A DNA stretch of 64,000 bases from Gemmatimonadaceae bacterium (GCA_025934775.1 JAICWO010000016.1:62001-126000); one strand, 5' to 3'. Shown: positions 5,055 through 36,211, numbered from the stretch's first letter. Notes: generated by a model not told the origin, from the sequence alone. Translations and numbers: made by a program.

Positions 5055-5057
5055 GGG

Positions 5058-6206: not shown

Positions 6207-6245
6207 GACGACCCGGGTGGAGGGATGGCGTACGATGTGGTGCGT

Positions 6246-16533: not shown

Positions 16534-17385
16534 TTACGGCTCCCCGCCCTCCTCGACGGTCTTCAACACTTCCGCGCAGCGCTTTCCCCACGGATTGAAC
16601 TTGTTCGCCTGGTAGCCGGCATTCCACGTCTCGACGGCCTCGTCGCGCTGGCCATTGAACCAGTACGCGCGGCCCAGCTCGTAATAGGCCTCGATCAGGT
16701 TCGGTCCGAGCGCGAGCGTCTTCTGAAAGAACGTCTGCGCATCCTCGAACATGTCCCGTTCGAGATACACGAGGCCGAGATAAAAGTGCGCGTAGAGCGT
16801 CGCCTTCTTGTCGTTGTCGAGGCGGATCGCGCGCGACAGGTGCTCGATCGCCTCGCCGAAGATGCGCTTCTTCAGGCAAATGTAGCCGACGTTGATCCGG
16901 GCGAGGGCGTTCTGCGGCTCGCGCACGAGCACTTTCTGAAAGTTTAACAGCGCATCGTCGAACTTGTCCTGCAGCATCTGCGCCCAGCCGAGCAGCGACT
17001 CCGCCTGCGGATCGTTGGGCGAGAGCTGGAGCGCTTTCCCGAGCGCCTGCTCCGCGCCGTCGTAGTCGCCAAGGGAGATCCGGCTCCAGCCTTTTTCGAT
17101 GAACGTCGAGGCGCCGATGTGATCGGCGTGAACCACCGGCCGCTCGCCGGCGAACTGCGGCGCGAGCGACGGAGCCGCGCCCTTGAGCGCCTTCCAGCGT
17201 TCGACGAGATGCAGAACGCTTTCCTTGAGCGCGGCGAGCTCGTTGAGCTCGTGCTCCACCGTCTTGAACAGCGCTCCGATCTCCGCCTTGAGCGCGTCCA
17301 TCTCCTGCGGCGCCCCCGGTGCATCGAGACGAGCCGCGAGCGCGGCGTGGCGCGCGCGCAGCTCGTCGGCCGAGCGGTCAGGCAC
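16534..17385 (-). CDS. Cytoplasmic TPR protein at the end of the chemosensory cluster
   Basis: The 283-residue protein has no signal peptide. Residues 1-70 form a predicted coiled coil (DELRARHAALAARLD, ALKAEIGALFKTVEHELNEL), then come about five TPR-like hairpins (e.g. GWSRISLGDYDGAEQALGKA, YLGLVYLERDMFEDAQTFFQ). TPRs bind protein partners; its position directly after two cheW genes, overlapping one by eight bases, suggests an adaptor or scaffold for the chemosensory array. It starts with GTG at 17385. Partner unknown. Confidence 0.85.
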   Translation of the reverse strand: MPDRSADELRARHAALAARLDAPGAPQEMDALKAEIGALFKTVEHELNELAALKESVLHLVERWKALKGAAPSLAPQFAGERPVVHADHIGASTFIEKGWSRISLGDYDGAEQALGKALQLSPNDPQAESLLGWAQMLQDKFDDALLNFQKVLVREPQNALARINVGYICLKKRIFGEAIEHLSRAIRLDNDKKATLYAHFYLGLVYLERDMFEDAQTFFQKTLALGPNLIEAYYELGRAYWFNGQRDEAVETWNAGYQANKFNPWGKRCAEVLKTVEEGGEP

Positions 17386-17869
17386 GCGCCGGCGCCCCCG
17401 CGACGCCGGCGCTCACGGCGCGATCGAACGCGATCCGGTCCGTGCTCGCGATCAGACAATTCACATCGAGCACCACGACGAGCTGCTCCTTCACCTTCGC
17501 CACGCCGCGCACGAATTTGGCGTCGAGTCCGCGAAAGATCGCGGGCGGCGGCGACACCGCGGTCGACGGCACCACCGCGACTTCGTGCACCGCGTCGACG
17601 ACCGCGCCCACGAGGCCCTCGGACGTCGTGAACACGATCACGCGCGTGTCGGGTGTGACCGAGTCCTCCGCGAGCTCGATCCGCCGCCGCATGTCGATCA
17701 CGGGGATCACCTTGCCGCCGTGCTCGAGCACCCCGTCGAGCCACGATGGCACATCGGGCACGCTGCTCGGCGGCGTGTAGCGCAGCACGCGCTCCACGGA
17801 GAACACGTCGGCCGCGAACATGTCCACGCCGAGCTGAAAGATCACGAGTTTGACGACGTCCGCCTTCAT
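17378..17869 (-). CDS. cheW: CheW-like coupling protein
   Basis: The 163-residue protein is a single CheW domain, the SH3-like fold that couples receptors to CheA. The N-terminal LVIFQLGVDMFAADVFSVERVLRY, the central LEHGGKVIPVIDMRRR and VVLDVNCLI match the domain. The ATG overlaps the end of the preceding cheW gene by four bases. One of three CheW paralogues in the cluster; each may serve a different partner. Confidence 0.9.
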   Translation of the reverse strand: MKADVVKLVIFQLGVDMFAADVFSVERVLRYTPPSSVPDVPSWLDGVLEHGGKVIPVIDMRRRIELAEDSVTPDTRVIVFTTSEGLVGAVVDAVHEVAVVPSTAVSPPPAIFRGLDAKFVRGVAKVKEQLVVVLDVNCLIASTDRIAFDRAVSAGVAGAPARA

Positions 17870-18321
17870 GTGCGTTCTCCCTGGCTCACCCCGCCCTCGA
17901 TGGTTGCGTCGAGCAGCGCCCGCGTATCGAGCACCGCGATCAGATCGCGGCCGCGGCGCACCACACCCCGCAACACGCCGTCCGATTCATCGCTGCCGCG
18001 AACTTCGCGTACTTCGCTCGAGTCCACCATGAGTGCATCCTGAACGTCGTCCACCACGAGCCCAACGCGGCGCGTGCCGCGGCGAAAGAGGAGTGCCGCG
18101 CCGCGCGCATCGCTGCCGCCGGCGCGCAGCACCGGGCTGGGGTCGTACAATCGAACGAGCTCGCCGCGAACCGTCGCCACACCGACGACGCCGGGATGCG
18201 CGTCGGGAATGGCGTTGGCCGGTGGCGTGTCGATGACTTCGTCTACCTGCCTCAGCGCGACTCCAAACCGCTCGCGGCCCAGCCGAAAGACGAGAAGGCG
18301 CTCGGCGCCGTCACGAAACAT
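17866..18321 (-). CDS. cheW: CheW-like coupling protein
   Basis: A second single-domain CheW of 151 residues: LLVFRLGRERFGVALRQVDEVID, VVGVATVRGELVRLYDPSPVL, VVDDVQDALMV and LIAVLDTRALL correspond to the usual CheW strands. It starts with ATG inside the end of cheB (11-base overlap) and ends inside the next cheW. The two adjacent CheW proteins are clearly diverged from one another, so this is not a recent duplication. Confidence 0.9.
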   Translation of the reverse strand: MFRDGAERLLVFRLGRERFGVALRQVDEVIDTPPANAIPDAHPGVVGVATVRGELVRLYDPSPVLRAGGSDARGAALLFRRGTRRVGLVVDDVQDALMVDSSEVREVRGSDESDGVLRGVVRRGRDLIAVLDTRALLDATIEGGVSQGERT

Positions 18322-19381
18322 GACGAACCTCCTCGATCAACTCGGCGATCGCCGAGCCGATCTCACCGAGCGGCGCCACGCGGTCGGCGCCCGCGGTTTG
18401 CAGCGCGGCGTGCGGCATACCGAATATCGTCGCCGTCTCGCGATCCTGAAGAATCGCGCGCCCGCCGACTTCGCGAATCTTGCGCGTACCCTCCGCGCCG
18501 TCGCGGCCCATGCCGGTGAGCACGACGGCAACGGTCGACGCGCCGAAGACGGTCACGGCCGAGTCGAAAAGCAGATCCGCCGCGGGACGCACGCCCCACA
18601 CCGGCGGCGAGTCGATGATCGCGATCGATGGCCCGCCGCCGTCATCGCGCACGGTCATGTGGCGGCCGCCCGGCGCAACGTACGCGTGCCCGTGCAGCAC
18701 CGGCTCGCCGTCTTCCGCTTCGGTGATCGAGATCGCGCTCACCGCGTCGAGGCGCTGCGCAAGGCTCCGCGTGAACGACGCTGGCATGTGCTGCACGACG
18801 AGCACCGCCGCGGGCAGCGCGCGCGGCAGTCGCGGCACCACGGCCGCGAGCGCACGTGGACCGCCGGTCGACGACGCGATCACGACGGCGTTCGTCGCGC
18901 GCGTCACCACGTCGGGTCGCGCCGCGCCGCCGTCGGACGAGAGCCGCGGCAGCATGCGGAGGCCGTTCAGGTTCGCCGCCGCGGCTGCACGGAGCGCGTT
19001 GAGCAGCCGGTCGGCAATTATGGGCAAATCGAGACTAATTGTGCCGGACGGCTTGAGCACGAAGTCGACGGCGCCCAGTTCGAGCGCGCGCAGCGTCGCC
19101 TGCTGGCCGCCGCCCGTCATGCCCGCGCTCAGCATCACCACCGGGCGCGGCGTCTCGCTCATGATGTAGCCGAGCGCGCTCAGCCCATCGAGCTCCGGCA
19201 TGTCGACGTCGAGCGTGACGACGTCCGGGTTGAGCTCGTGAATCTGCTTGAGTGCGTCGTAGCCGTTGCGCGCCGTGCCGGCGACGCTGAACTCGCCGGA
19301 ATCGGCGATGATCTGCGACGTCATGCGGCGCATGAACGCGCTGTCGTCCACGACGAGCACGCGCGGCAGCCTAGAGGACAC
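18311..19381 (-). CDS. cheB: Chemotaxis response regulator protein-glutamate methylesterase CheB
   Basis: CheB removes methyl groups from (or deamidates) receptor glutamates once phosphorylated by CheA. From the GTG at 19381 the product has 356 residues: a receiver domain with the acidic pair at DD12-13 and phosphoacceptor D58 (LDVDMPELDG), then a methylesterase domain with catalytic Ser171 (ASSTGG), His198 (QHMP) and Asp294 (GMGRDGAEG). All catalytic residues are intact. The GTG start lies within the last codons of cheD (11-base overlap). No receptor gene is nearby, so its substrate must be encoded elsewhere. Confidence 0.96.
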   Translation of the reverse strand: MSSRLPRVLVVDDSAFMRRMTSQIIADSGEFSVAGTARNGYDALKQIHELNPDVVTLDVDMPELDGLSALGYIMSETPRPVVMLSAGMTGGGQQATLRALELGAVDFVLKPSGTISLDLPIIADRLLNALRAAAAANLNGLRMLPRLSSDGGAARPDVVTRATNAVVIASSTGGPRALAAVVPRLPRALPAAVLVVQHMPASFTRSLAQRLDAVSAISITEAEDGEPVLHGHAYVAPGGRHMTVRDDGGGPSIAIIDSPPVWGVRPAADLLFDSAVTVFGASTVAVVLTGMGRDGAEGTRKIREVGGRAILQDRETATIFGMPHAALQTAGADRVAPLGEIGSAIAELIEEVRHVS

Positions 19382-19862
19382 GCGATCCTTTCCTGAGCGA
19401 ACGCACCTCGACGCGGCCGTCCTCGACGAAGAAATACACGCTCCGTCCGTAGTCGCTCCCGGTGTCCTCGGCCACAATCGGCACGCCGGCCACCGCGAGC
19501 ACCTCGCGCACCGATGTGACGTTGCGCTCTCCGATGTTGATGCCGCCGGGCGGAATCAGGTTTCCAAACATGCTCGCGCCGCCGACGATCTTCGCCCGCA
19601 CGCGCTCGACGCTCGCGCCGAGCCGCGCCATCTGTTCGAGCAGGAGCGGTACGGCGGTGGTTGGGAACTTCGCCGGATTGGAGCGGTCGCGCGACATCGC
19701 CTCGTTCGGCAGCAGCACGTGCGCGAGTCCACCCACGCGCGCCACGGGATCGTGCAGCGCGATCGCGACGCACGATCCCAAACCGATCGTCGACAGCGTG
19801 CCGGAATCCGCCGCCGCGAGCTCGGCGACTTTCACCCGGATCTCCAAGGCCTCGGTGCTCAT
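19371..19862 (-). CDS. cheD: Chemoreceptor glutamine deamidase CheD
   Basis: CheD deamidates receptor glutamines and, in systems such as Bacillus, also binds CheC and raises its phosphatase activity. The 163-residue product contains catalytic Cys31 (GLGSCVAIALHD) and His48 (GGLAHVLLP), plus the FGN/GERN segment ASMFGN and NIGERN. Its ATG overlaps cheR in ATGA. A cheC gene occurs about 10 kb upstream in the same cluster, so a CheC-CheD pair is plausible. Confidence 0.94.
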   Translation of the reverse strand: MSTEALEIRVKVAELAAADSGTLSTIGLGSCVAIALHDPVARVGGLAHVLLPNEAMSRDRSNPAKFPTTAVPLLLEQMARLGASVERVRAKIVGGASMFGNLIPPGGINIGERNVTSVREVLAVAGVPIVAEDTGSDYGRSVYFFVEDGRVEVRSLRKGSRVL

Positions 19863-20674
19863 GCGCGGCGGAACACGCGCTCGCGCGCGTCGATCGGAGC
19901 GAAGCGGCTCCGCGCCCGCCCGAGCAGCGTCTCGACTTTGCCCAGCACCAGGAAGCCGTCGGGCGCGAGCGCGTCGTAGAAGGAATCGAACATGCGTTCC
20001 TGCGTGTCGCGGTCGAAGTAAATCAACACGTTCCGGCACACGATCAGGTCGTGAAGACCCGGGGGCGCCGGGTCGCTCAAGAGATCGCGCCGTTCGAAGC
20101 GCACCATCGCGCGGACCGCGGGATCAATCCGGAACGGGATCTCCGTGGAGAAGTATCGGCGCCGAAGGTCGTCCGGTGTATCGGCGAAGTCGGCCTGATC
20201 GAATTCGCCTTTGGCCGCCCGATCGAGGCTCTGGCGGTCGATGTCGCTGCCGAGCACCGTGACGCGCCCGATCTCGGCGAGCATTCCGTGCTTGAGCGCG
20301 AAATCGTACAGCAGCACCGCCAGCGAATACGGCTCCTCGCCAGAGGAGCATCCGGCGCTCCAGACGCGGATGTGCCCCGGCCGCTGCCAGAGCGCCGGGA
20401 CGACGTGCTCCGCGATCGAGGCGTACGCATCCCAGTTCCGGAAGAGCTTCGTGACGTTGATCGTGAGCGCGTCGAGCAGGCGATCGTACTCGCCTTCGTC
20501 CGTGTCGAGAATCGCGGCGTAGTCGTGATACGTGTGCACGCCGCGCGCGCGCATGCGCACGGCGATGCGGCGGCGGAGGCACTTCTCCTTGTAGCTCGCG
20601 CAGCCAAAGCCGCGCTCCGCCGAGATCTTGTGCGTCAACGCGAGAAAGTCCGCTCCTTCGTGCTGCTCGACCAT
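19859..20674 (-). CDS. cheR: Chemotaxis protein methyltransferase CheR
   Basis: CheR methylates receptor glutamates with S-adenosylmethionine. The product has the CheR N-terminal helical domain (YKEKCLRRRIAVRMRARG, then INVTKLFRN) and the methyltransferase domain with VWSAGCSSGEEPYSLA and DLIVCRNVLIYFD, both family hallmarks. I place the start at the ATG 20674, whose A is shared with the stop of the preceding gene; a TTG one codon earlier is also possible. No TPR or receptor-binding extension is present. Confidence 0.95.
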   Translation of the reverse strand: MVEQHEGADFLALTHKISAERGFGCASYKEKCLRRRIAVRMRARGVHTYHDYAAILDTDEGEYDRLLDALTINVTKLFRNWDAYASIAEHVVPALWQRPGHIRVWSAGCSSGEEPYSLAVLLYDFALKHGMLAEIGRVTVLGSDIDRQSLDRAAKGEFDQADFADTPDDLRRRYFSTEIPFRIDPAVRAMVRFERRDLLSDPAPPGLHDLIVCRNVLIYFDRDTQERMFDSFYDALAPDGFLVLGKVETLLGRARSRFAPIDARERVFRRA

Positions 20675-22296
20675 CAATACACCTGCCGAAGCGATTCGAG
20701 ATTCGTGCGCACGATCGCGTTGTCCGGATCGAGCTCCAACGCCCGTTCCCAGCAGCGCACCGCTTCCCCACGCTCCTGCCGGCGCAGTCGAATGTTGCCG
20801 AGCTTCAGGTACACATCGGCGCCGAGCTCCGGGTTTGCCTTCGTCGCTCGCAAGTAGGCCTCGAGCGCCTCGTCATATCGGGCGGCGCGGTAGTGCAGGT
20901 CGCCCACGTTCTTGTGCAGCTGCGCGAGCCCCGGGTCCTCCTGCAAGCCCCGATCGGCCACGCTTCGCGCTTCGTCGTACTCGCCGTGCCGCTCGAGCGC
21001 GACCGCGAGATTGTTGAGCAGCGCGGCCACGTGCGGGTGCGCCGCGACACCCTCGCGCAGGATGGCCGCGGCGCGCGCACCGTCCCCGAGCAGCGCGGCG
21101 GTGAGTCCGGCGTAATGGAACCACGCCGCGGTCGGCGGCTTCTTGCCGAACTCCGGCCGCGCGGTGGTGAGCGCGGCGTCGGCCGCCTCGAGGTCGCCCG
21201 CCTGGAGATGCACGGCGCCGAGCGAGGTGAGCGCACGAGGATCGCTCGCGGCGCCGCGCTTGGCGGCTTCGTCGAGCGCTTGTCGCGCCTCTTCGATCTT
21301 GTTCTGCCGCTCGAGCACGTACGCGAGATTGTGGAACGCCGCGGCCTTGGCGCCCGGCTGCGCGGTGGCTTCGACGAACGCCGCGGCGGCGTCGTCCCAC
21401 TTCTCCTGGCGCGCGAGCACGAGGCCCGAGTAGAAGCGCGCCGTCGCGTCGCCGGCGCGCAGGTCGAGCACGCGGCGGAATTCGCGCAGCGCCTCGTCGA
21501 GCATGCCAGTTTTATAAAAGGCGATGCCGAGATTCCGGTGCTCCTCCACGCGTCCTTCGGCGACGGCCTGCGGGACCGCCGCCGCCGTCTTGCCGATGCG
21601 ATGGATGAACCCGGCCGAGACGAGGCCGTAGAGCGCCTTGCCGACCTCGAACTCGACGAGCCCGGATGCATCGACGATTGCCTGGACGTCGCGCGCGCCG
21701 TCGACCAGCTCGAGTACGGCGCGCTGCTCGTCGGTGAGCTCGACTTCGCTGGAGAAGACCTTGCCGCGATCCATCTCGAAGACGAGATCGAACGTCGGAA
21801 TCTTCTTCTCTATCAAACCCCACTCGTCGACGCGCCGCGCACCCTCGAGCAGCAGCGACTCCGGGTTGATCGACACGACGTGATCGTGCTGATCGGGAAG
21901 GACGTCGGCCTCGAAGTTGAACGTCCCCTGGTTCCACGTGAACAGGAAATAGACCGCTTCCTGGATCTGCACGTGAATCGCCGCGTGCAGTTGATCCATC
22001 GAGAGCGCGGCGAGCTCCACGAGCAGCTCGCCCAGGCGCTTGTCGCGCCGTTTGTCCTGGAGACCGATCGCCGACTCGAGCTGCGTCTGGGTGACGATGC
22101 CGTTCTTCACGAGCATGTCGCCCAGCCGGTCGCGCCGATTCACGATCGACGCGTAGCAGATGCGGCCTTTGTCGAAGTAGATGTAGCCGAAGTTGTTCCG
22201 ATGCGTGACGCTCAAGCAGCCGGTCTTCTTTCCCATCGCCAGGAGCTGGAGCACGTCGGGGAGGCTCGCCTCTTTGAGGCTTCCGCGAATCGCCAT
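20674..22296 (-). CDS. PATAN (DUF4388) domain protein with C-terminal TPRs
   Basis: The 540-residue protein begins with a PATAN/DUF4388 domain (residues 1-~235): GSLKEASLPDVLQLLAMGKKTGCLSV, GYIYFDKGRICYAS, then a winged-helix-like part with RLGDMLVKNGIVTQTQLESA and a second DLVFEMDRGKVF region. After a linker around 245-255 it has about eight TPR-like units (LGIAFYKTGMLDEALREFRR through LKLGNIRLRRQERGEAVRCW). PATAN domains are known from cyanobacterial and delta-proteobacterial regulators that touch motility and development. It sits between the tandem AAA+ gene and cheR, overlapping each by one base. Confidence 0.88.
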   Translation of the reverse strand: MAIRGSLKEASLPDVLQLLAMGKKTGCLSVTHRNNFGYIYFDKGRICYASIVNRRDRLGDMLVKNGIVTQTQLESAIGLQDKRRDKRLGELLVELAALSMDQLHAAIHVQIQEAVYFLFTWNQGTFNFEADVLPDQHDHVVSINPESLLLEGARRVDEWGLIEKKIPTFDLVFEMDRGKVFSSEVELTDEQRAVLELVDGARDVQAIVDASGLVEFEVGKALYGLVSAGFIHRIGKTAAAVPQAVAEGRVEEHRNLGIAFYKTGMLDEALREFRRVLDLRAGDATARFYSGLVLARQEKWDDAAAAFVEATAQPGAKAAAFHNLAYVLERQNKIEEARQALDEAAKRGAASDPRALTSLGAVHLQAGDLEAADAALTTARPEFGKKPPTAAWFHYAGLTAALLGDGARAAAILREGVAAHPHVAALLNNLAVALERHGEYDEARSVADRGLQEDPGLAQLHKNVGDLHYRAARYDEALEAYLRATKANPELGADVYLKLGNIRLRRQERGEAVRCWERALELDPDNAIVRTNLESLRQVY

Positions 22297-24212
22297 TAGC
22301 GGAGCTCCTCGATCAGCCGGCTCGCGGGATCGGGCCAGTACCAGACGACCTTTTCCACGTCGAGGAAGAACGTGTCGGCCGCGGTGCGCATCGCGGCGCT
22401 CCGCGTGGACTCGGCGTCGTCCGGCTCGAGCTCGGCGCGAATGAATCCGATCGTCACCGGGACGGCCGCGACCTCCGCGGAGGCGACGATCCGGTTGGCG
22501 GTGCCGATGATCTCGCGCACGCTCGCGACCGCGCGTTCGGCCAGGTAGCGCAACATCTCCGCGGTCGGCGAGACGCCGAGGTCGCGCAGGAAGCGCGCGA
22601 AGAGCCGCTCGCGAAGGTCGCGATCCGGCGACTGCATCTCGACGACGAGACCGCCCTCGAAGCGCGAGCGCAGCCGCTCCTCGAGACCGGAGAGCTCTCG
22701 CGGCGGCCGATCGCTCGCGATGACGAGCTGCTTGCCGTCCGCGTACAGCGCGTTGAACACGTGGAACAGCTCTTCCTGCGTCCGCTCCTTGCCGGCCACG
22801 AACTGCACGTCGTCGAGGAGGAGCGCGCTCGCCGCGCGGTAGCGCGAGCGCCACCGATCGACCGTGCCTTCCTGGAGCGCCGCGATCAACTCGTCCACGA
22901 AATGCTGTGCCGGCACACAGGCGACGCCGGCACCCGCGGTCGCGACCAATCCGTTTCCAATCGCGTTGAGCAGATGCGTCTTCCCGACGCCGCTCGGCCC
23001 GTGCACGAACAGCGGGTTGTAGCGGCTCCCCGGCACGGCGACGATGGCGTCCGCGGCGCGAACCGCGAGCTGGTTGCACGTGCTCACCTCGAACCCGGCA
23101 CGCGTGAACGCGGCCGACGGTCCGGGGGGCGGCGTCGACGCGCGGAGCGCGCGCTCGAGGAGCGCCTCGGCTTCCTGGACGCGGTCGGGGTCGTGAAACG
23201 CGTCGTGCGCGGCCAGCGCGGCGTCCATGCGCAGGATCTGCTTTTCGAGATCGCGGAGCTTGCCCACGCTCGCCTCGAACTCGCGGAGCAGCGTCTCGAC
23301 GCTCGCCGGCGGCGTCGCGTCCTGCAGCACGCGATCGAGCCGCCCCGTGCGATAGCCTTCGCTCTTCCAGTACGCGATCGCGTCGGTGACGCGGGTCTTC
23401 CACTGCTCCACGTGCTGCGCGACGGCGGACGCGATGTCCGTGAGGAAATTCTGAAACTCGCCGGAGAGGCGGGGCGGCGTGGCGCGCGGGCGGTCCACGG
23501 CCAGATCGCCGAGGATCCTGAGCACCGCTTCGGGCTCGACGGCTTCGCCGCCCAACGTCTGGAACGCGATGAGGCGGTTGAGCGCCCCCTGGAGCTCGCG
23601 CACGTTCTGGAACTCGAGACGGCTGACCTCTTCGACCACGCCGCCGCGGAAGCGCACGCCGCGCTCCTCGCACTTGGCGCGCAGGATCGCGACGCGGGTC
23701 TCGTAGTCCGGCGCGCCGATGTCGACGATCAAGCCGCCCGAGAGCCGCGTGAGTAAACGCTCATCCACGTCCTTGATATCGGCCGGCGGCCGGTCGCTCG
23801 TCATCACGATCTGGCGGCCGTCCGCCTGGAGCGTGTTGAAGATCTTGAGCAGCTCGGTCTGGGTCTCGCGATGACCGGTGAGGAACTGCACGTCGTCGAT
23901 CAGCAGCACCTCGACGCCGAGGTAGCGGGCGACGAACGCGTCGCCGCGGCCGGCGGCGATCGCCTCGTGCAGCTCCTCGACGAAATCGTCGAGCGTGACG
24001 AGGTCGATGACGGCGCCCTTGTTCCGCTGCAGCACCTGGTTGCCGATCGCGCACATGAGGTGCGTCTTGCCGAGCCCCGAGCTGCTGTACATGAACAGCG
24101 GGTTGTAGACGCTGCCCGGGGTATCGGCGACCGCGCGCGCCGCCGCGACGGCGAGGCGGTTGGCCGAGCCGACGACGAAGTTGTCGAAGCGGAGGCGGGA
24201 GTCGAGGAGCAC
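22296..24212 (-). CDS. Tandem DnaA/Hda-type AAA+ ATPase lacking DnaA domain IV
   Basis: The 638-residue protein holds two DnaA-type AAA+ modules. Module 1: Walker A GLGKTH (46-51), Walker B LLIDDVQF with DD at 106-107, sensor MTSDRPP, box VII ERLLTRLSGGL, sensor II NVRELQGALNR. Module 2: Walker A GVGKTH (408-413), Walker B LLLDDVQF (DD 467-468), sensor IASDRPP, box VII EERLRSRFEGGL, and a weaker sensor II. A helical linker of about 120 residues separates them. The DnaA DNA-binding domain IV is absent, and the C terminus is a short acidic/aromatic tail (EKVVWYWPDP). It is not the replication initiator. It starts with GTG four bases after mglA, so a role with that GTPase is likely. I know of no described function. 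Confidence 0.88.
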   Translation of the reverse strand: MLLDSRLRFDNFVVGSANRLAVAAARAVADTPGSVYNPLFMYSSSGLGKTHLMCAIGNQVLQRNKGAVIDLVTLDDFVEELHEAIAAGRGDAFVARYLGVEVLLIDDVQFLTGHRETQTELLKIFNTLQADGRQIVMTSDRPPADIKDVDERLLTRLSGGLIVDIGAPDYETRVAILRAKCEERGVRFRGGVVEEVSRLEFQNVRELQGALNRLIAFQTLGGEAVEPEAVLRILGDLAVDRPRATPPRLSGEFQNFLTDIASAVAQHVEQWKTRVTDAIAYWKSEGYRTGRLDRVLQDATPPASVETLLREFEASVGKLRDLEKQILRMDAALAAHDAFHDPDRVQEAEALLERALRASTPPPGPSAAFTRAGFEVSTCNQLAVRAADAIVAVPGSRYNPLFVHGPSGVGKTHLLNAIGNGLVATAGAGVACVPAQHFVDELIAALQEGTVDRWRSRYRAASALLLDDVQFVAGKERTQEELFHVFNALYADGKQLVIASDRPPRELSGLEERLRSRFEGGLVVEMQSPDRDLRERLFARFLRDLGVSPTAEMLRYLAERAVASVREIIGTANRIVASAEVAAVPVTIGFIRAELEPDDAESTRSAAMRTAADTFFLDVEKVVWYWPDPASRLIEELR

Positions 24213-24216
24213 GACG

Positions 24217-24825
24217 CTACCGCGCTCCCGCGGGCGCGCCGGCGCTCAGCCGCTTGAGCACGAGCTCCGAGATGGCGCGCAGCGTCTCGAACACCCCGGG
24301 GCCGTGCAGCGCGTCCGCCGAAAACTCGGGGACGCCGCGGAAGTTGAGCGAGTCCGAGAGATCGGCGGTCGAGAGGATGAGGTCCTTCGGCAGATCCTGC
24401 TTGTTGTACTGGATGACGAGCGGCACCGTGCGCGCGTCGATCCCCTGCTCGGCGAGATTGGCGTGCAGGTCCTGGAAGCTTTCGATGTTCTCACTGAGCT
24501 GCCGCGCCTGGCTGTCGGCGACGAAGACCACGCCGTCCGCGCCCTGGAGCACGAGCTTGCGCGTGGTCTGGTAGTACACCTGGCCCGGCACCGTGTAGAG
24601 CTGGAACTTGGTCGTGAAGCCGGAGATGGTGCCGAGATCGAGCGGGAGAAAATCGAAGAAGAGCGTGCGATCCGTCTGCGTGGCGAGGGAAACCATCTTC
24701 CCTTTCCGGTCGTCGGGCACCTGACCGTAGATGTAGTGCAGATTGGTCGTCTTTCCGGACCGACCGGGTCCGTAGTAGACGATCTTGCACGTGATCTCGC
24801 GGGTGGCGTAGTTGACGAGCGACAA
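24217..24825 (-). CDS. mglA: MglA-like small Ras-type GTPase
   Basis: MglA is the bacterial Ras-like polarity GTPase that sets the leading pole in gliding and twitching Myxococcus cells. The 202-residue protein shows G1 GPGRSGKTTN, the MglA-type switch with G3 TVPGQ (Thr where Ras has Asp) and G4 NKQD. The N terminus MSLVNYATREITCKIVYYGP matches MglA closely, which fixes the start at 24825 although the codon is TTG and only a pyrimidine-rich stretch, without Shine-Dalgarno, precedes it. Three roadblock proteins (the MglB GAP family) lie just upstream. Confidence 0.93.
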   Translation of the reverse strand: MSLVNYATREITCKIVYYGPGRSGKTTNLHYIYGQVPDDRKGKMVSLATQTDRTLFFDFLPLDLGTISGFTTKFQLYTVPGQVYYQTTRKLVLQGADGVVFVADSQARQLSENIESFQDLHANLAEQGIDARTVPLVIQYNKQDLPKDLILSTADLSDSLNFRGVPEFSADALHGPGVFETLRAISELVLKRLSAGAPAGAR

Positions 24826-25004: not shown

Positions 25005-25475
25005 TCACCTCCCGAACAACGCCGCCAGATTCGCGTTCAGATCGCGCTCGAAGTCCAGGCCGAGTGCGGGGGCGCGCACCGCGGGGAGCGCGGGGGCCGC
25101 GGAGGCCAGCTCCCGGCACATCTCCTCGAAATACAGCCGCACCAGGCCCAGCGAGCTCTCGGCGTCGAACACGGTGAGACAAATGTAGGAACCGCGGCCG
25201 GTGTCGGCCGGCGCGAGAAAGAGCTGCTTCGCCGTTCCGGCGTAGTGCAGCGCGCGGAACGGCCGGCCGTCGAGCTGGCGACCGAGCTCGGCGGCGGTCG
25301 CGTGAGCCGCGGAGGCGAGCGCGCACGCCGTCATCACGTCGACGGCACGCGTGAAGCCGGCCTGCGCCACCACCTGCCCCGACGGATGGAGCAGGAGCGC
25401 CAGTCGCGCGCGCGCGTCGTCGACGAACCGCCGGAGCGGCGCCTCGATCCACGGCTCAACGGTCGCGATGATCAC
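25005..25475 (-). CDS. Roadblock/LC7-like protein (MglB-type), distal copy
   Basis: The 156-residue protein has the roadblock pattern: an N-terminal helix, LALLLHPSGQVVAQAGF, then ACALASAAHATAAELGRQL, and the strand SYICLTVFDAESSLGLVRLYFEEM. Roadblock proteins dimerise on small GTPases; MglB is the MglA GTPase-activating protein. A Pro/Ala-rich C-terminal tail follows the domain. It starts with GTG overlapping the preceding roadblock gene and ends just before the AT-rich island that precedes mglA. Assignment as a GAP is inference. Confidence 0.75.
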   Translation of the reverse strand: MIIATVEPWIEAPLRRFVDDARARLALLLHPSGQVVAQAGFTRAVDVMTACALASAAHATAAELGRQLDGRPFRALHYAGTAKQLFLAPADTGRGSYICLTVFDAESSLGLVRLYFEEMCRELASAAPALPAVRAPALGLDFERDLNANLAALFGR

Positions 25476-25822
25476 GCCAGCGCTCCCGCGGCCTTCAGCA
25501 TCTCCATGCGAATCAGCCCCACGTTCGCGGCCGGGTCGGCGACCACCACGATCACGAGCTCTCCGTATCCACCAACGGCACAGATTCGCCCTCGCTCGGC
25601 GTCGAGCTGGAGGAACGCGACAGCCCCCAGACGCGCGGCAGCAGCCGAGAGGCGCGCTTTGCGGTACATCGACGCCGCAAGCGCTGCCACCCGGTCGCCG
25701 TCCTGCCCGAACCGGAGGTTGGAATCGACCACTAATCCGTCACTCTCCGAGACGATCAAGCTTGCCCGCACGCCACGCTGCCGGGTGAGCGACTCGAGCA
25801 TCGACGTGAATGGACTCGTCAT
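25472..25822 (-). CDS. Roadblock/LC7 domain protein (MglB-like)
   Basis: A 116-residue single roadblock domain: FTSMLESLTRQRGVRASLIV, SESDGLVVDSNL, the helix DRVAALAASMYRKARLSAAA and the strand GELVIVVVADPAANVGLIRM are typical of MglB-like proteins. It is the best MglB candidate by length and pattern. The ATG overlaps the end of the TPR-roadblock gene in ATGA, and its own stop overlaps the next roadblock gene, pointing to coupled synthesis. Confidence 0.85.
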   Translation of the reverse strand: MTSPFTSMLESLTRQRGVRASLIVSESDGLVVDSNLRFGQDGDRVAALAASMYRKARLSAAAARLGAVAFLQLDAERGRICAVGGYGELVIVVVADPAANVGLIRMEMLKAAGALA

Positions 25823-26625
25823 GCCTGCCCCCGCGCGGTGAGCCAGGTGCTCGCCCGATCGGCACATCGATCGAGAAGCCGGCGGAGAAGGCCAAGCGGC
25901 GTTGCCCGCGACGCCGCGACGACGAGCAGGCTGGAATCGGCCGCCGGGGACATCGCGACCACCGCGTGCTGCGTCTCGAACGTGATCGACCGCCACTCGC
26001 CGATGTCGAGGTGCCGCGTCGAGCGCTGCACCTCTTCCGAGATGCCGCTCAATTGGGCCCCTACTTCTTGCGAGACGTCCGAACCGTCGGCGTCGACGTA
26101 GATGCCGCCGAGCACGAAACCGCTCGCGTCGAGCAGGATCGCCGTTTGCCCCTCGTCCGTGAGCACCTCGGCGAAGAGCATGCGCGGATCGTTCGGTGTG
26201 GGGTGCTCGAGCGGACTGCCGACGATCCCGGACGAGCGCCGCACCGTCTGCAGGGCGGCGGAGACGTCGGCGCCCGCGCCGCCGGCCTGAGCCTCGCCGA
26301 GAAAACGCTCCGCATCTTCGAATCGGCCCTGCTGGAACGAGATGTAGCCCAAGCCCTTCATCGCGCCCACGTGATGCGGCATGATCTTGAGGACCGTCTG
26401 CCATTCCTCCGCCGCGCGCGCGAAATCCCGCCGGTCGACGGCGATGCGCGCCACGAGATCGTGCGCCTCCGCGCTGCGCGCATGCCGCTCGAGGCCGCGG
26501 AGCGCGATCTTGAGCGCCACCTCGAGCTGGCCTTGACGCCGCAGCGCTTCGCCAAGCTGGATGAACACGAGGCTCGACGGGTCGTGCGCGAGCTCGTCGC
26601 TCCAGCGCCGAATGTCTTCAGCCAT
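25819..26625 (-). CDS. TPR protein with a C-terminal roadblock-like domain
   Basis: The 268-residue protein has about three TPR-like hairpins (residues 15-115: LGEALRRQGQLEVALKIALR, LVARIAVDRRDFARAAEEWQ, LGYISFQQGRFEDAERFLGE), a linker, and from about 145 a roadblock-like domain: LFAEVLTDEGQTAILLDASG, FVLGGIYVDADG, LLVVAASRATPLGLLRRLL. This fuses a scaffold with a potential GTPase-binding module. It lies between the second PATAN gene (eight-base overlap) and two stand-alone roadblock genes. Confidence 0.8.
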   Translation of the reverse strand: MAEDIRRWSDELAHDPSSLVFIQLGEALRRQGQLEVALKIALRGLERHARSAEAHDLVARIAVDRRDFARAAEEWQTVLKIMPHHVGAMKGLGYISFQQGRFEDAERFLGEAQAGGAGADVSAALQTVRRSSGIVGSPLEHPTPNDPRMLFAEVLTDEGQTAILLDASGFVLGGIYVDADGSDVSQEVGAQLSGISEEVQRSTRHLDIGEWRSITFETQHAVVAMSPAADSSLLVVAASRATPLGLLRRLLDRCADRASTWLTARGQA

Positions 26626-27559
26626 CGCCGTGGGCCTCCAGCACGCGCTGCAGCCGGACCAGGGCCTCGAGCGCGTCGCGGGCCTCCGGCGACGCCGGCC
26701 CGCTCGGCGATTGTTTTAGAAAATGCTCAATCTCCTTGCGCGACGCGGCGATCTCCTCCGCCAACGAGCGCACGAGACCCGCGGGGAGCCGCGATTCGGC
26801 GATGCTCCGCTCGGCCTCCGACGTCGTTCGGTGCGGCACGCGCAGCGTGATGATCCCCGTCGTGGCGAGTCCGTAGGCGATCTTCGCGACCTCGAACTCG
26901 TCGCGGCCGAGCGTGGCCGCCATGCCCCGCAGATCGCGCTCCCCGTCGATGATCGTGAGCACCTGCCATTCGTGCGGCAGCAAATCGAGCATCGCCCCTT
27001 CCCGCCCGTCTTCCACCGGCGCGAGCTCCGGAACGACGGACACGTTCGGCACGATGTCGGCGATGCGCGACCATTCGTCGATCCGACGCGCGCCTTCCAT
27101 GAGAAGCGACTCGGTCGAGACCGTGATGCGCGTGTCGCGAGGCATCTCCTCCTTCGTGCGCTCCTCGAAGGAGAAGAAGCCCTCCTGCCAGGACATCAGC
27201 TCGAACACGACGCTCTCGATCTGCAGCCGAAGCTGGCGTTCCAACTCCCGCTGCGTGATCGCGCCGATCTCGACGAGGAGCTCCGGGATCTCGCGCGACG
27301 CACGGCCGTTGGCCTTGCGCTGCTTCGCCCGTTCGATGTCCGTCTCACTGATGCGTCCGGCCTGCACGAGCGCCAGCTCGGTGGGCACGGTCTTGCTGCG
27401 GATGGTCGCCTGCACGACGCGGCCGCCGTCGAAGTAGACCAGCCCTTCGTCTTCGCGCAGCTCGGACGAGACGCGCAGCATCCCGGTCTTCCGGCTCAAG
27501 TCGAGAAGCTGGAAGACGTCGTGGATGCCGAGCTCGCGGAGCGGTCCCTCGATCGCCAT
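26618..27559 (-). CDS. PATAN (DUF4388) domain protein
   Basis: The 313-residue protein is a PATAN/DUF4388 protein: GPLRELGIHDVFQLLDLSRKTG, LVYFDGGRVVQATI, ALVQAGRISETDIERA, LRLQIESVVFELMSWQEGFF and VSTESLLMEGARRIDEW. It lacks TPRs and ends in a helical stretch (SLAEEIAASRKEIEHFLK). It parallels the N-terminal half of the protein at 20674-22296, so the cluster has two diverged PATAN proteins. Its ATG overlaps the stop of the large TPR gene by one base. Confidence 0.88.
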   Translation of the reverse strand: MAIEGPLRELGIHDVFQLLDLSRKTGMLRVSSELREDEGLVYFDGGRVVQATIRSKTVPTELALVQAGRISETDIERAKQRKANGRASREIPELLVEIGAITQRELERQLRLQIESVVFELMSWQEGFFSFEERTKEEMPRDTRITVSTESLLMEGARRIDEWSRIADIVPNVSVVPELAPVEDGREGAMLDLLPHEWQVLTIIDGERDLRGMAATLGRDEFEVAKIAYGLATTGIITLRVPHRTTSEAERSIAESRLPAGLVRSLAEEIAASRKEIEHFLKQSPSGPASPEARDALEALVRLQRVLEAHGDG

Positions 27560-30252
27560 CAGGACACCGCCCGCGGACCGAGGATGCGCTGGAGATCGCT
27601 TGCGGTGCGGATCTCGCGCCGCGCGCGGCGAGCGAACTCCGAGCTCGGTGCGAGCTCGATCACGCGCTGCCAGCGCTCGATCGCATCGCGGTACCGATGC
27701 TGCTCGGCGAGGATCGTTCCCTCATAGAACAGCGCCCCCGCATGCGAGGGATCGAAGCGCAGTACGCGCGCGAACGCGTGCACCGCGTCGCGCTTGCGGC
27801 CGAGCGCGAGCAGCGTTTCGCCGAGGGCGATGAGCGCGTCGAAGTGGTAGGGATCGCGCTGGAGCAGATCGACGAGCAACGAGATCGACTCGGCCGGGCG
27901 GCCGAGCCGCCGGCGCAGGTTCGCCAGCTCGAGGGTCGCTTCCGCGTACGTCGGCACCGCGTCGAGCGCGGCGACGAGCTCCTGCTCCGCCTCGCGGTTC
28001 TGCCCTTTGCCCTGGAGCAGTCGCGCGAGATGAAACCGCACGACGGCGAAATCATTGTCGAGCGTCAGCGCGTGCCGGTACGCGGAGATCGCGCCTTCGT
28101 TGTCGCCGAGCGAGCGCGCGATGTCGCCGATCTTCTGCTGAATATCGGCGCGCATTGGCGCGACGCGGCGCGCGGCCTCGAGCACCGACAGCGCGGCGGC
28201 GGGATCGCCGCCCTCCGCGCACGCGGATGCGGTGAGCATCAGAATATCGACGTCGTCCTGCGAATCGGCGAGCAGGCGTTCGGCGATGGGACGTGCCTCG
28301 GGCGCGCGGCCAAGCTTGATCAGCGACCACGCTTCGCCAATGCGCGCCGAGCGAAGCGCCGGCTCCAGTCGCAGCGCCTCGCGATACCGCTCGAGCGCCT
28401 CGCCGTACAGTCCCTGCCGGGCAAAGACCTCGCCGTGGAGCGCGAGGCCGTCCGCGCGCGCGTTGCCGCGCGCCATCGCGCGGCTGATCTCCGCCGAGGC
28501 GCGATCGTAGAGTCCCTTCGAGAGAAAATCGGTCGCCATCGCGAACGGCGACGAATCGATCGTGCGCGACTGCGCCGGCACGGGCGCTGGGGCCACCGGC
28601 GTGAGCTCGGTGAAGAGCGTGTCGAGCGACTGGGGATCGAAGCTGAAGTCCGCGACGGCAACGTCGGTGGCGCGCTCGGCGCCGCCCAGGTCCGGCTGGA
28701 TCGAGAGATCAGGATCCTCATATTCGACATCCATCGCGAGCTCGAATTTCTGCGCGACGTAATACGGGTCGAGCTCGAGCGCGCGCTTGGTCTCGCGCAG
28801 CGCGCCCTCGAAGTCACCGAGGTTGGACAGCGTGAAGCTCATGTTGTAATGCGCTTCCGCGTACTCGGGCTTGGCCTGGATCGCGCGGGCGAACGCATTC
28901 CGCGCATCTTCGAACTTTCGCAGCTCCGTGAGCACGAGGCCGATGCCGTTCCACGCGACCGGGTGCTCCGGTTCGCCGGTGAGCACCTGCCGGTACGCGT
29001 CGAGCGCCGGCGGAAATCGCTTTCCGCGGCTCATGAGCAGCGCGAGATTCAGTCGCGCCTTGGTGAAGTTCGGCTGCGTGTCGAGCGCCGTGCGAAACGC
29101 CGCGACGGCTTCGTCGGCCGCGCCGCTATGGTAGAGCGCGACGCCGAGATTGTTCTGCGCGATCGCGTACGTCGCTTCGGCGGCGAGCGCACGGCGATAA
29201 CTCTCCTCGGCATCGGCGAACCGCCCGTCCTGGTGCAGCGACACGCCGCGTTCATTCCAGAGCTTGGGGCTCGACGGCTGCCGGCCGAGCAGCTCCTCAT
29301 AGAGCGCGAGCGCTTCCTTCGGCTGCTTGAGGAGCAAGTGGAGCTCGGCCATCGCCTGCAGCACGAGGTCGCGCTCCTCGCCGCGCTCGAGGGCCACGCG
29401 GTACTCGCGCATGGCCTCGGCGTAGTAGCCCTTGCTGCGGAAGGCGAGGCCGAGGTTGTAGCGGGCGAGCTGTCCCTCGCCGGAGACCTGGAGCTCGCGG
29501 CGCGCCGGCTCGGCCGCTTCCGGCCGCGCGGCGCGCTGTTGATCGATGGCGAGATTGGCGTGCGCGCGCGAGAGCGTGGGATTGAGCTTGATCGCGCGGC
29601 GGGTGGCGGCTTGCGCGTCCTCGTGGCGCCCCATGTCGCCGAGTACGAACCCCATGAGGTAGAGCGCGTCGTGGTTCTCGGCGTTGAGCTCGACCGCGCG
29701 CTCGAGCTCGTGCAGCGCTTCCTCGTTCAGCCCGCGATGGTAGAGCACCTCGCCCATCGCGACGTGAAGGAGCGAGCTCTCGGGATCGAGGCGGAGCGCG
29801 CGCTCGAGCGACTGCTGCGCGCGCTCCATGTCGCCGGCCTGCTTCTCGGCGAGGGCGAGCTGGAGGAGGGCGCCGACGTCGTGCGGCGCGTACTGGAGGA
29901 GGGTGCGGAATTCATCGATCGCCTCGTCCTGCTGGCCGAGGAGGGCGAAGGTGCGGCCGAGCTCCCAGCGGGCCTCGCGGTCATCCGGCTTGCCGCGGAG
30001 CCGTTCTTTCAGTTCTGGTATTCTAGAATCATAATACCCGGTATTGAAATACGCGATCTCCAGGTTGCGCTGGGCGACCTGCATCTTCTGGTCGAGCTCC
30101 AGCGCCTTCATGAACGCGGCGACGGCCTCCTCATACAGCCCCTTGTTGTAGTAGAGGACTCCGAGGTTGTTGTGCGCGCCCGCGTCCGACGGATCGATCC
30201 GCCGGGCGAAGGAGCGCAGGACGTCGCGGTCGCGCTCGGAGGTGAGCACCAT
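27559..30252 (-). CDS. Large multi-TPR scaffold protein
   Basis: The 897-residue cytoplasmic protein is almost wholly made of TPRs, probably twenty or more, starting NNLGVLYYNKGLYEEAVAAF and including repeated tandem units. Around residues 520-595 the repeats are broken by an acidic, Pro-rich linker (EYEDPDLSIQPDLG, VAPAPVPAQS), after which TPRs resume to about 880. No signal peptide or membrane segment is seen. TPR scaffolds occur with MglA systems and chemosensory arrays. It lies 13 bases after cheC and overlaps the PATAN gene. Confidence 0.85.
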   Translation of the reverse strand: MVLTSERDRDVLRSFARRIDPSDAGAHNNLGVLYYNKGLYEEAVAAFMKALELDQKMQVAQRNLEIAYFNTGYYDSRIPELKERLRGKPDDREARWELGRTFALLGQQDEAIDEFRTLLQYAPHDVGALLQLALAEKQAGDMERAQQSLERALRLDPESSLLHVAMGEVLYHRGLNEEALHELERAVELNAENHDALYLMGFVLGDMGRHEDAQAATRRAIKLNPTLSRAHANLAIDQQRAARPEAAEPARRELQVSGEGQLARYNLGLAFRSKGYYAEAMREYRVALERGEERDLVLQAMAELHLLLKQPKEALALYEELLGRQPSSPKLWNERGVSLHQDGRFADAEESYRRALAAEATYAIAQNNLGVALYHSGAADEAVAAFRTALDTQPNFTKARLNLALLMSRGKRFPPALDAYRQVLTGEPEHPVAWNGIGLVLTELRKFEDARNAFARAIQAKPEYAEAHYNMSFTLSNLGDFEGALRETKRALELDPYYVAQKFELAMDVEYEDPDLSIQPDLGGAERATDVAVADFSFDPQSLDTLFTELTPVAPAPVPAQSRTIDSSPFAMATDFLSKGLYDRASAEISRAMARGNARADGLALHGEVFARQGLYGEALERYREALRLEPALRSARIGEAWSLIKLGRAPEARPIAERLLADSQDDVDILMLTASACAEGGDPAAALSVLEAARRVAPMRADIQQKIGDIARSLGDNEGAISAYRHALTLDNDFAVVRFHLARLLQGKGQNREAEQELVAALDAVPTYAEATLELANLRRRLGRPAESISLLVDLLQRDPYHFDALIALGETLLALGRKRDAVHAFARVLRFDPSHAGALFYEGTILAEQHRYRDAIERWQRVIELAPSSEFARRARREIRTASDLQRILGPRAVS

Positions 30253-30265
30253 GCTCAGGCGCCGC

Positions 30266-30880
30266 TCAGGCGACGCGAACGGCCTTCAGGATGGCCTGCA
30301 GCGACGCAGGATCGGGAAGGAGGAGAAAGTAGCCGCGGAGGTGTTCCTCGATGTCGTTCATCACGAACTCGCTCTCGACGCAGAACACGTAGTCCTTGTC
30401 GCTCCCGAACTGCAGGTACGCGGTGGTCAGTACGGCGTTCGACATGTCGATGGCGAGACTCGGCGGCGACGGCAGCAGCATCATCCCCATGAAATCGCTC
30501 AGCGCGTTCATGTACGCCGAGCTCAGGATGTTGCCCGCCTCCTTGATCGCCGACTGCTCCATCTCGGTGAACTCGTCCGAGCTGGCGCGCCGGAGGAGCA
30601 AGCCCGCGAGCCGGAGCGCCGTGCGCCGCGGGAAGACGAGCAGCGTGCGGCCCGTGAGATCGCCGAGCATGTGCATCAACACGGCCGCCACCGGCTCGTC
30701 CGGCTCGGCGACTTGCGGCGGGACTTCCTCGAGCGGTGACACGTTGATGCGCGGCACCGTGATCATGATGGTCTCGCCGATCATCTGCGAGAGCGCGGTG
30801 GCGGCGTGTCCGGCGCCGATGTTCGCGACCTCGCGGAGCGCGTCGAGCTGGATCGCCTTCAGGGTACGGAGATCTTCCAT
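30266..30880 (-). CDS. cheC: CheY-phosphate phosphatase CheC
   Basis: CheC removes phosphate from CheY-P to end the signal. The 204-residue protein carries both active-site motifs of the CheC/FliY family: LREVANIGAGHAATALSQM and IKEAGNILSSAYMNALSDF, each with the Glu and Asn pair. No CheZ is encoded here, so CheC is the visible phosphatase. CheD, its usual partner, is encoded at 19371-19862. It follows cheA by seven bases. The ATG at 30880 fits the family N terminus. Confidence 0.93.
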   Translation of the reverse strand: MEDLRTLKAIQLDALREVANIGAGHAATALSQMIGETIMITVPRINVSPLEEVPPQVAEPDEPVAAVLMHMLGDLTGRTLLVFPRRTALRLAGLLLRRASSDEFTEMEQSAIKEAGNILSSAYMNALSDFMGMMLLPSPPSLAIDMSNAVLTTAYLQFGSDKDYVFCVESEFVMNDIEEHLRGYFLLLPDPASLQAILKAVRVA

Positions 30881-30887
30881 GCCGTCC

Positions 30888-32852
30888 TCAGAGAAGACTG
30901 CTGACGTCGAGTATGAGCGACGGCGAGCCGTCGCCAAGGAGCGTCGCTCCGCCAAAGAACGGCAGACCGTCGCGGACCGCGTCGTACTGCTTCACCACGA
31001 TTTCATCCTGCCCCGTCAACTCGTCGATCACGAGCGCCGCACGGCGGTCGCCCAAGTCGATCACGACCGCCTGCTCCAGATCGATGTCGCTCGCCGCGGT
31101 GTATTCCGGAAGACCGACGAGCGAACGAAGGCGCACGAGCGGAAGGACCTCGTCCCGCGCGAGCAGCACGTCGCGTCCCTTCACCGACGCGATCACGTCC
31201 GGCGCCAGCTCGATCGTCTCGCTCACGTGCGCGAGTGGAATGGCATACACCTCATCGGCGACGCGCGCCAGCAGCGCGCGCACGATCGCGAGCGTCAGCG
31301 GCAGCCGCAGGATCATCGTCGTGCCCTGGCCGGGCACGGAGCGAATGTCCATGGCGCCGCCGAGCGAACGCACGCGCGTGTACACGGCGTCGACGCCGAC
31401 GCCGCGGCCAGACAGATCGGTCACCTTCTCGGCGGTCGAAAAGCCCGGGCGCGCGATGAGGCGCAGCAGCTCGTCTTCGGTGAGCTCCGTCTTGTGCTCG
31501 TCGACGAGGCCGTTGGCCTTTGCCTTCGCGAGCACACGCGCCCGATCGATGCCCTTGCCGTCGTCCGCGACTTTGATCACGACGGCGGACCGGTCGCGCG
31601 TCGCGCTGAGCACGAGCCGGCCCGCGGCCGGTTTGCCCGCCGCGACGCGCTGCTCCGGCGATTCGATGCCGTGATCGATCGCGTTGCGCAGCAGGTGCAC
31701 GAGCGAGTCGGCCATCTCGTCGAGCATCGAGCGATCGAGCTCGATGTCCTTGCCTTCGACGATGAAATCGACCTGCTTGCCGACGGCGCGGGACGCGTCG
31801 CGGACGACGCGCGGGAAGCGGTCGAAGACGTTCGAGACCGGAACCATGCGGCTCGCCGTGATCTCGTCGCGCAGCTCGGTGATCAACCGCGACGACTGCG
31901 CGACGGTCTCCTCGAGGGCGCCGTCGCCGAGATCGTCCGCGAGCTGCGAGAGCCGTCCGCGCGCGATCACGAGCTCGCCGATCAGATTCATCAGATTGTC
32001 GAGCCGCCGCACATCGATGCGCACGTGTCGCGCGCGGCTGCCGTCCGCGCGCATCGCATCACGCGGCGCCGCCGCTGTCATCGCGGACGCCGGCGTCTCG
32101 ATGCCCATGTCATCGCGTGGCGGCGTGATGCCCGCCGACGACGCGGGCACGGCCGCCGCGACGGGAACGCTGTCGTCGCCGATCTGCACGTCGACGACGT
32201 CGCCGGCGCCGCGCGCGACGCGCTCGAGGTCCGCCGGCTCGAGCGTCGTGCGGACGCGGATCGCGAAATCGGATTCGAACGCGTCGATCTGCAGATCGTC
32301 GACCGACGGCGCGGTCGCGAGGATCTGTCCGACCTTGGCCAGCGTCTGAAGAATCACATACGCGCGCACACCGCGGAGCGGCGTGTCGGGCGCCAGCCGC
32401 ACGCGGACGAGCGTGCCCGGCCCTGGCGGCGCGGCGACGGTCCATGCGACGGTGCGCTCCGCGGCCGGCGTGCCGAGCGTCTTGAGCGCGGCCACGAGCT
32501 CCGTCGCGGTGACCTCGCCTTCGCGTCCGGCGACCGCGGCCTCGACGGACTTCTCGAGCACGTCGGCCGCGCGGAAGAGCACGTCCATCACGCCGGCGTC
32601 GATTGCGAGCGCGTTGCGGCGCGCGCGATCGAGCACGCTCTCCAGCTCGTGCGCGAGCTCGGCGACGACGGCGTACCCCATCATCGCGCTCATGCCCTTG
32701 ATCGTGTGGACCGAGCGGAAGATCTCGCCGACGGCCGTGAGCGCGGCGGGCCCGGGCGGCTGGCGCTCGAGCTCCAGCAGCGCGCGATTCACCGCCGCGA
32801 CGTGCTCGCGACTCTCGGCGAGAAAGAGCTCCGCGTACTCGAGATTATCCAC
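30888..32852 (-). CDS. cheA: Chemotaxis sensor histidine kinase CheA
   Basis: CheA autophosphorylates on a histidine and passes the phosphate to CheY and CheB. Domains in the 654-residue product: P1/HPt with His49 in FRSVHTIKG; a P2-like domain (about 150-230); P3 dimerisation (about 270-340, LDNLMNLIGELVIARGRL); P4 kinase with N box HLLRNAIDHGIES, G1 VADDGKGID, F/G2 GRGVGVDAV; and a C-terminal CheW-like P5. All catalytic boxes are intact. It starts with GTG 21 bases after cheY. Confidence 0.97.
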   Translation of the reverse strand: MDNLEYAELFLAESREHVAAVNRALLELERQPPGPAALTAVGEIFRSVHTIKGMSAMMGYAVVAELAHELESVLDRARRNALAIDAGVMDVLFRAADVLEKSVEAAVAGREGEVTATELVAALKTLGTPAAERTVAWTVAAPPGPGTLVRVRLAPDTPLRGVRAYVILQTLAKVGQILATAPSVDDLQIDAFESDFAIRVRTTLEPADLERVARGAGDVVDVQIGDDSVPVAAAVPASSAGITPPRDDMGIETPASAMTAAAPRDAMRADGSRARHVRIDVRRLDNLMNLIGELVIARGRLSQLADDLGDGALEETVAQSSRLITELRDEITASRMVPVSNVFDRFPRVVRDASRAVGKQVDFIVEGKDIELDRSMLDEMADSLVHLLRNAIDHGIESPEQRVAAGKPAAGRLVLSATRDRSAVVIKVADDGKGIDRARVLAKAKANGLVDEHKTELTEDELLRLIARPGFSTAEKVTDLSGRGVGVDAVYTRVRSLGGAMDIRSVPGQGTTMILRLPLTLAIVRALLARVADEVYAIPLAHVSETIELAPDVIASVKGRDVLLARDEVLPLVRLRSLVGLPEYTAASDIDLEQAVVIDLGDRRAALVIDELTGQDEIVVKQYDAVRDGLPFFGGATLLGDGSPSLILDVSSLL

Positions 32853-32873
32853 GCGACCGCGACCGTCCGCCGA

Positions 32874-33236: not shown

Positions 33237-33247
33237 GAACGCCTCCG

Positions 33248-34685: not shown

Positions 34686-34711
34686 CGCCCGCCCGGGCGT
34701 GGCTGGAGGAA

Positions 34712-35239: not shown

Positions 35240-35251
35240 GTGGGTGGGATC

Positions 35252-36209: not shown

Positions 36210-36211
36210 CG

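Follow-up and report, generated by a model that had tools for sequence, protein, structure and literature searches.

A candidate PATAN-TPR adaptor family with zero to two DnaA-type AAA+ modules, probably linked to type IV pilus motility in Gemmatimonadota

Introduction

DnaA and related proteins are known for their work on nucleic acids. Hda needs its arginine finger to stimulate DnaA-ATP hydrolysis, and in the clamp loader an ATP-dead AAA+ module, delta-prime, supplies an arginine finger to its neighbour.

In cyanobacteria, PATAN regulators bind the PilB motor (PMC7690835, PMC10519157), and in Myxococcus the GTPase MglA and the TPR protein SgmX stimulate pili (PMC7519303, PMC11580455). The location of MglA genes near PATAN genes was noted earlier (PMC4316618).

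Here, we analyzed a 64,000-nucleotide stretch of a Gemmatimonadaceae genome (the window), in which a protein with two DnaA-type modules is encoded between an MglA-type GTPase and a PATAN-TPR protein. A literature search found no paper joining DnaA, MglA and DUF4388 and no description of the tandem protein, in agreement with the initial annotation, which knew of no function for it. We consider the family real, conserved and apparently undescribed; its best reading, drawn from sequence comparison, is not 'two ATPases beside MglA' but a putative adaptor of the PATAN-TPR protein carrying zero to two DnaA-type modules.

Results

A tandem DnaA domain III protein

The reading frame at 22296..24212 (minus strand, GTG start) encodes a tandem DnaA-domain-III protein of 638 aa, named DnaA2 here. 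Bac_DnaA matched it twice in Pfam (E 1.1e-103, 344.8 bits), the NCBIfam DnaA model gave two matching stretches, and solved DnaA structures matched at E 3e-56, those of B. subtilis, A. aeolicus and T. maritima being the best. The chain starts at domain III: no Pfam match to DnaA_N (domain I) was obtained, nor any to Bac_DnaA_C (the domain IV helix-turn-helix), and the linker and tail match nothing in Pfam either. Ordinary DnaA is encoded on another contig of the same genome. Orthologues of DnaA2, about 50-81% identical, keep the gene order across the phylum Gemmatimonadota, so the gene is neither a chance reading frame nor a pseudogene. Elsewhere in this genome, a weak Bac_DnaA match (29 bits) was seen in a 578-aa frame (L004, G000:C17:135136-135447).

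Module 1 (aa 1-238; 23499..24212, minus strand) is a complete DnaA domain III with its lid, carrying Walker A K49, Walker B D106/D107, sensor 1 D140, box VII R152/R156 and sensor 2 R205. Module 2 (aa 369-598; 22419..23108, minus strand), likewise complete in the window protein, has Walker A K411, Walker B D467/D468, sensor 1 D501, box VII R513/R517 and sensor 2 R566. In a structure alignment, module 1 was superposed on B. subtilis DnaA domain III with Z 29.4 over 238 residues (rmsd 2.5), and R264, the published arginine finger of the B. subtilis protein, aligns with R156 of module 1. The predicted full-chain model (pTM 0.40) does not fix the arrangement of the modules. The matches and motif residues bear out the initial annotation in its description of two complete modules with Walker A, Walker B and box VII arginines, as the Pfam searches do for its claim that domains I and IV are missing.

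Gene cluster and the constant partner

DnaA2 belongs to a gene cluster encoded on the minus strand. Directly downstream, with an overlapping start, lies the gene of a 541-aa PATAN (DUF4388)-TPR protein (20674..22299), its near-obligate partner. On the other side, Pfam and conserved order identify an MglA-type Ras-like GTPase of 202 aa (24217..24825), a Roadblock/LC7 protein (25472..25840), a TPR-roadblock protein (25819..26625), a second PATAN (DUF4388) protein (26618..27559) and a long TPR protein of 897 aa (27559..30252); a further Roadblock/LC7 protein (25005..25475) scored just under the Pfam cut-off. These are followed at 30266..33736 by CheC/CheX (30266), CheA (30888), CheY (32874) and CheW (33248), with CheC and CheW assigned by Pfam and CheA and CheY by sequence reading and conserved order. 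The latter basis also applies to the genes at 16534..20677, which encode CheR (19859), CheD (19371), CheB (18311), two CheW proteins (17866 and 17378) and a TPR protein (16534). Thus, the Ras-like GTPase and PATAN-TPR neighbours of the initial annotation were found where it had placed them, at 24217 and 20674.

The neighbourhood of Che, MglA and PATAN genes is conserved, most families keeping the order CheY-CheA-CheC-TPR-PATAN-TPR/Robl-Robl-Robl-MglA-DnaA2-PATAN_TPR-CheR-CheD-CheB-CheW-CheW-TPR. The analyzed collection comprised 200 Gemmatimonadota genomes, 107 of which gave a strong match beyond canonical DnaA, divergent forms coming in addition; full-length tandem relatives were found only in Gemmatimonadota-type MAGs by a genome-contig scan that reaches close relatives only. 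DnaA2 and PATAN_TPR were adjacent and on the same strand in all 103 genomes with both on one contig (66 of them within 20 bp), the DnaA2 core lying directly upstream of the PATAN-TPR gene. Among the remaining genomes, two had the genes on different contigs and two had no PATAN_TPR match over threshold.

The adjacency outlasts the rest of the cluster, since the DnaA2 core stays with PATAN-TPR where the AAA+ modules, MglA, roadblock or Che genes have left the locus. In one genome (G023), the MglA, roadblock, long TPR and second PATAN genes are gone, and a mini-adaptor, PATAN_TPR, CheA, CheC, CheR and CheB remain. In family f5, only DnaA2 and PATAN_TPR are found together, near yggS, divIVA and ileS (names by sequence reading), with MglA elsewhere in the genome. 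MglA as an obligatory partner was rejected on the G023 locus, which keeps PATAN-TPR without it; MglA as the key partner is likewise not supported, several lineages having it at another place in the genome or having lost it from the cluster, with the PATAN-TPR neighbour retained. Comparison of the loci thus presents PATAN-TPR as the nearly constant partner and MglA as not obligatory. A defence function was also considered and rejected, PADLOC hits being only at the generic AAA+ level.

The window cluster adjoins a yggS-divIVA-pnp-ileS-dksA/traR-lspA block (window 33248-41533), and the f5 pair sits near the same yggS/divIVA/ileS genes without Che or MglA genes (L099, L101); because of this shared block, both probably occupy the same chromosomal place. 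A probable cell-wall and division block, murD, mraY, murF, murE and ftsI as read from sequence starts, also lies near the cluster (window 2458-11140).

The proximity of divIVA to both the cluster and the lone DnaA2/PATAN-TPR pair is compatible with a polarity scaffold, in which an ATP-dependent head-to-tail filament or spiral of DnaA2 would mark a pole or gather the MglA, PATAN and Che proteins, and the two covalently joined modules would nucleate the filament or set its pitch. DnaA domain III assembles into helices that depend on ATP (PMC10721633), and both modules of the window protein keep all polymer-forming residues. However, the divIVA linkage may be mere shared ancestry of the locus, and relatives with one module or none keep the same gene slot, so that polymerization cannot be the central function. 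We regard the scaffold as rather unlikely.

From two modules to none

Module content varies within the family, and the conserved part lies elsewhere in the chain. Family f9 has one module with the linker; in three further genomes (G026, G108, G105), module 2 is missing, with linker and tail present; and G159 lacks AAA+ modules altogether, its 185-aa protein consisting of linker and tail. The smallest forms (G010, G113, G016, G023) are minis of about 60-75 aa, made of the first linker helix and the tail, encoded directly before PATAN_TPR and overlapping its start (L123, L124, L125, L126). In the PATAN_TPR tree, the four minis form one group, and the module-free state arose at least two times. 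The PATAN_TPR proteins beside the minis are shorter at the C-terminus (412-434 versus about 535 aa aligned), a hint, given by one event, that the C-terminal TPRs are tied to those adaptor parts that the minis lack.

The constant part of the family, as judged from sequence, is the helical linker and the W-x-W-P tail, not the AAA+ modules. The linker (aa 246-364; 23121..23477, minus strand) is an unannotated helical domain that survives in relatives without AAA+ modules, and the C-terminal peptide (aa 613-638; 22299..22376, minus strand), with EKVVWYWPDPASRLIEELR, is present in nearly every family member, including the mini-adaptors, its family consensus being EKVVWxWPDxxxRLIEELR. The predicted structure of the linker alone is a bundle of helices (pLDDT 87.3, pTM 0.70). 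It matched no Pfam family at cut-off and gave no convincing match among solved structures by sequence or fold: the best Foldseek E was 4.3, and the best second-look Z was 4.2 over 78 residues, meaningless for a helical bundle, although a domain without a structural match need not have a new fold. A hidden DNA-binding domain was accordingly rejected, and the initial annotation's view that the protein has none was upheld by Pfam, by solved-structure profiles and by the linker fold search. The tail has pLDDT of about 33 in the full-chain model, as expected of a putative docking peptide modeled without its partner, and we infer that it docks to PATAN_TPR.

The strict reading that two ATPases are needed was rejected, since the modules are not equally essential across the family. 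The initial annotation had taken the two complete ATPases as the point of the protein, a part that is not supported, because the number of modules in relatives is two, one or none and ATP binding can be lost from module 2; its proposed role outside replication is supported, as are a link to a Che/MglA/PATAN system and, as the likely way of working, an ATP-dependent assembly or switch.

ATP sites, arginine fingers and single-stranded DNA contacts

The Walker A lysine of module 1 is kept in 48/48 sequences, the sensor 2 arginine in 47/48 and, among the tandem forms, the module's own arginine finger in 45/48. Module 2 is intact in relatives of the window protein, and several lineages have it without its lid and sensor 2. 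In family f5, it has lost Walker B and the Walker A lysine (0/9) and retains both box VII arginines (9/9 and 9/9); an ATP-dead module keeping these residues suggests that it donates an arginine finger to module 1. By these counts, module 1 is the conserved ATP site, and module 2 can be deprived of ATP binding with its finger retained. Homo-oligomerization via module 1 alone is as possible as finger donation by module 2, because module 1 keeps a finger of its own.

In the tree, module 1 forms one clade (100/99) and module 2 another (100/100). A single old internal duplication is judged likely and not more, because the two group apart from canonical DnaA with support of only 92/77.

Conserved fingers would also suit an Hda-like regulator, whose modules would bind DnaA domain III and couple replication to motility or polarity, with DnaA2, DnaA and Hda all members of one AAA+ family. 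Yet a pattern scan of the chain found no clamp-binding motif, the gene context is motility control and not replication, DnaA2 is absent from many genomes that have DnaA, and the AAA+ part is lost while the gene slot persists. The NCBIfam Hda model reached 174.5 bits, summed over two stretches, and stayed below its cut-off of 194.8. We find this regulator highly improbable. The NCBIfam IstB/DnaC helicase-loader models, among those shown, were all far under cut-off for DnaA2.

The single-stranded DNA contacts of A. aeolicus DnaA, which we take to be K188, R190 and T191 (numbering checked against the structure match), differ between the modules. In module 1, the R190 equivalent is E in 43/48 sequences, and these contact residues are lost; in module 2, R190 is kept in 36/39 and K188 in 31/39. 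At the position of B. subtilis I190 (PMC10721633), module 1 has H82, and module 2 keeps the isoleucine as I443. Module 2 may thus have a role on DNA, and one could imagine it binding incoming single-stranded DNA during natural transformation through pili. The losses in module 1, the net acidic character of all parts of DnaA2, and a cluster with signalling genes and no uptake genes speak against such DNA handling, to which we give hardly any credence.

Type IV pili or flagella

PilT, the type IV pilus retraction motor, scored over the model cut-off in 129 of the 130 genomes with the DnaA2/PATAN-TPR pair versus 57 of 70 without it, and FliG was matched in 51/130 versus 7/70. As PilT is common without the pair too and FliG is enriched with it, co-occurrence is confounded by descent. 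No pilus gene lies inside the cluster. The Che genes, the FliG enrichment and the presence of FliG in this genome would fit a cluster that steers flagella or gliding, with DnaA2 as an adaptor there. Against this, 79 of the 130 pair-bearing genomes have no FliG match and nearly all have PilT; flagella are clearly not required for the pair, and we hold steering of flagella or gliding to be very unlikely. The gene cluster probably steers type IV pilus surface motility.

A DnaA-type protein upstream of pilB in another phylum

A second association of a DnaA module with pilus genes was found outside Gemmatimonadota. Locus L051 (4512-9085) encodes a protein that joins MshEN to a DnaA domain III and has no domain IV; PilB and PilT come next. 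The same order is present in a Hydrogenedentota locus (L050, 2-3696), whose contig starts inside the DnaA gene, so that the MshEN part is not seen. A strong MshEN-DnaA-type match was counted from the table in 42/60 genomes of the L051 phylum (E <=1e-63), many of which also have ordinary DnaA matches. The pilB gene lay directly downstream in all 14 further loci (L144-L157), hence in 16/16 loci read, and pilT followed where the contig reaches. No linker or tail shared with DnaA2 was seen in these proteins. Their modules form one clade (100/100) apart from DnaA2 modules 1 and 2, and for this reason MshEN-DnaA is probably a separate recruitment; DnaA modules without domain IV would then probably have been tied to type IV pili twice. 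As the literature search returned no description of MshEN-DnaA before pilB, a domain IV-free protein of this kind upstream of pilB in a second phylum is apparently undescribed.

Discussion

Taken together, we propose DnaA2 as an ATP-gated adaptor of PATAN-TPR in a chemosensory/MglA pathway controlling type IV pili, a model that we consider about evenly balanced between holding and failing. The box VII arginine of module 2 would complete the ATP site of module 1, within a chain or between neighbouring chains, in a contact like that of the helical DnaA oligomer. The module pair would close on binding ATP and open on hydrolysis, thereby exposing or hiding the linker and tail that may hold PATAN-TPR, whose PATAN domain would act on the motor of pilus extension. 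Probable upstream inputs are MglA-GTP and Che phosphorylation. The broader proposal, that DnaA-type AAA+ modules were recruited at least two times as nucleotide-dependent switches of pilus control outside nucleic-acid work (the Gemmatimonadota tandem and MshEN-DnaA), is put forward tentatively, and we lean somewhat against it.

These results suggest a replication engine reused as a cell-movement switch; if this is true, the family shows the DnaA engine at work in cell movement. The natural series of two, one, ATP-dead and no modules lets the role of each module be probed, and control of surface motility in Gemmatimonadota becomes directly testable.

Among known systems, DnaA domain III shares with both DnaA2 modules its sequence, fold (Z up to 29.4), ATPase motifs and arginine finger, whereas DnaA2 joins two modules in one chain without domains I and IV, and its module 1 has lost the single-stranded DNA contacts. 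Hda is also a DnaA-type AAA+ protein without domain IV; DnaA2 differs in having no clamp motif, and in its two modules, additional helical linker and tail, and motility context. The clamp-loader delta-prime, a separate subunit of a DNA clamp loader, offers an analogy only for module 2 in one lineage. A Ras-like GTPase, roadblock and TPR proteins and a chemosensory array are held in common with MglA/MglB, SgmX and Frz of Myxococcus (PMC7519303, PMC11580455), but we found no DnaA-type ATPase described in the MglA/MglB system, and MglA is not always in the cluster here. The cyanobacterial PixG and PixE combine PATAN with chemotaxis-like signalling and bind PilB (PMC7690835, PMC10519157); here, TPRs take the place of the receiver domain in the PATAN protein, and its partner is a DnaA-type adaptor. 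The MshEN-DnaA protein upstream of PilB also links a DnaA domain III that lacks domain IV to type IV pilus genes, but it has one module and an N-terminal MshEN domain.
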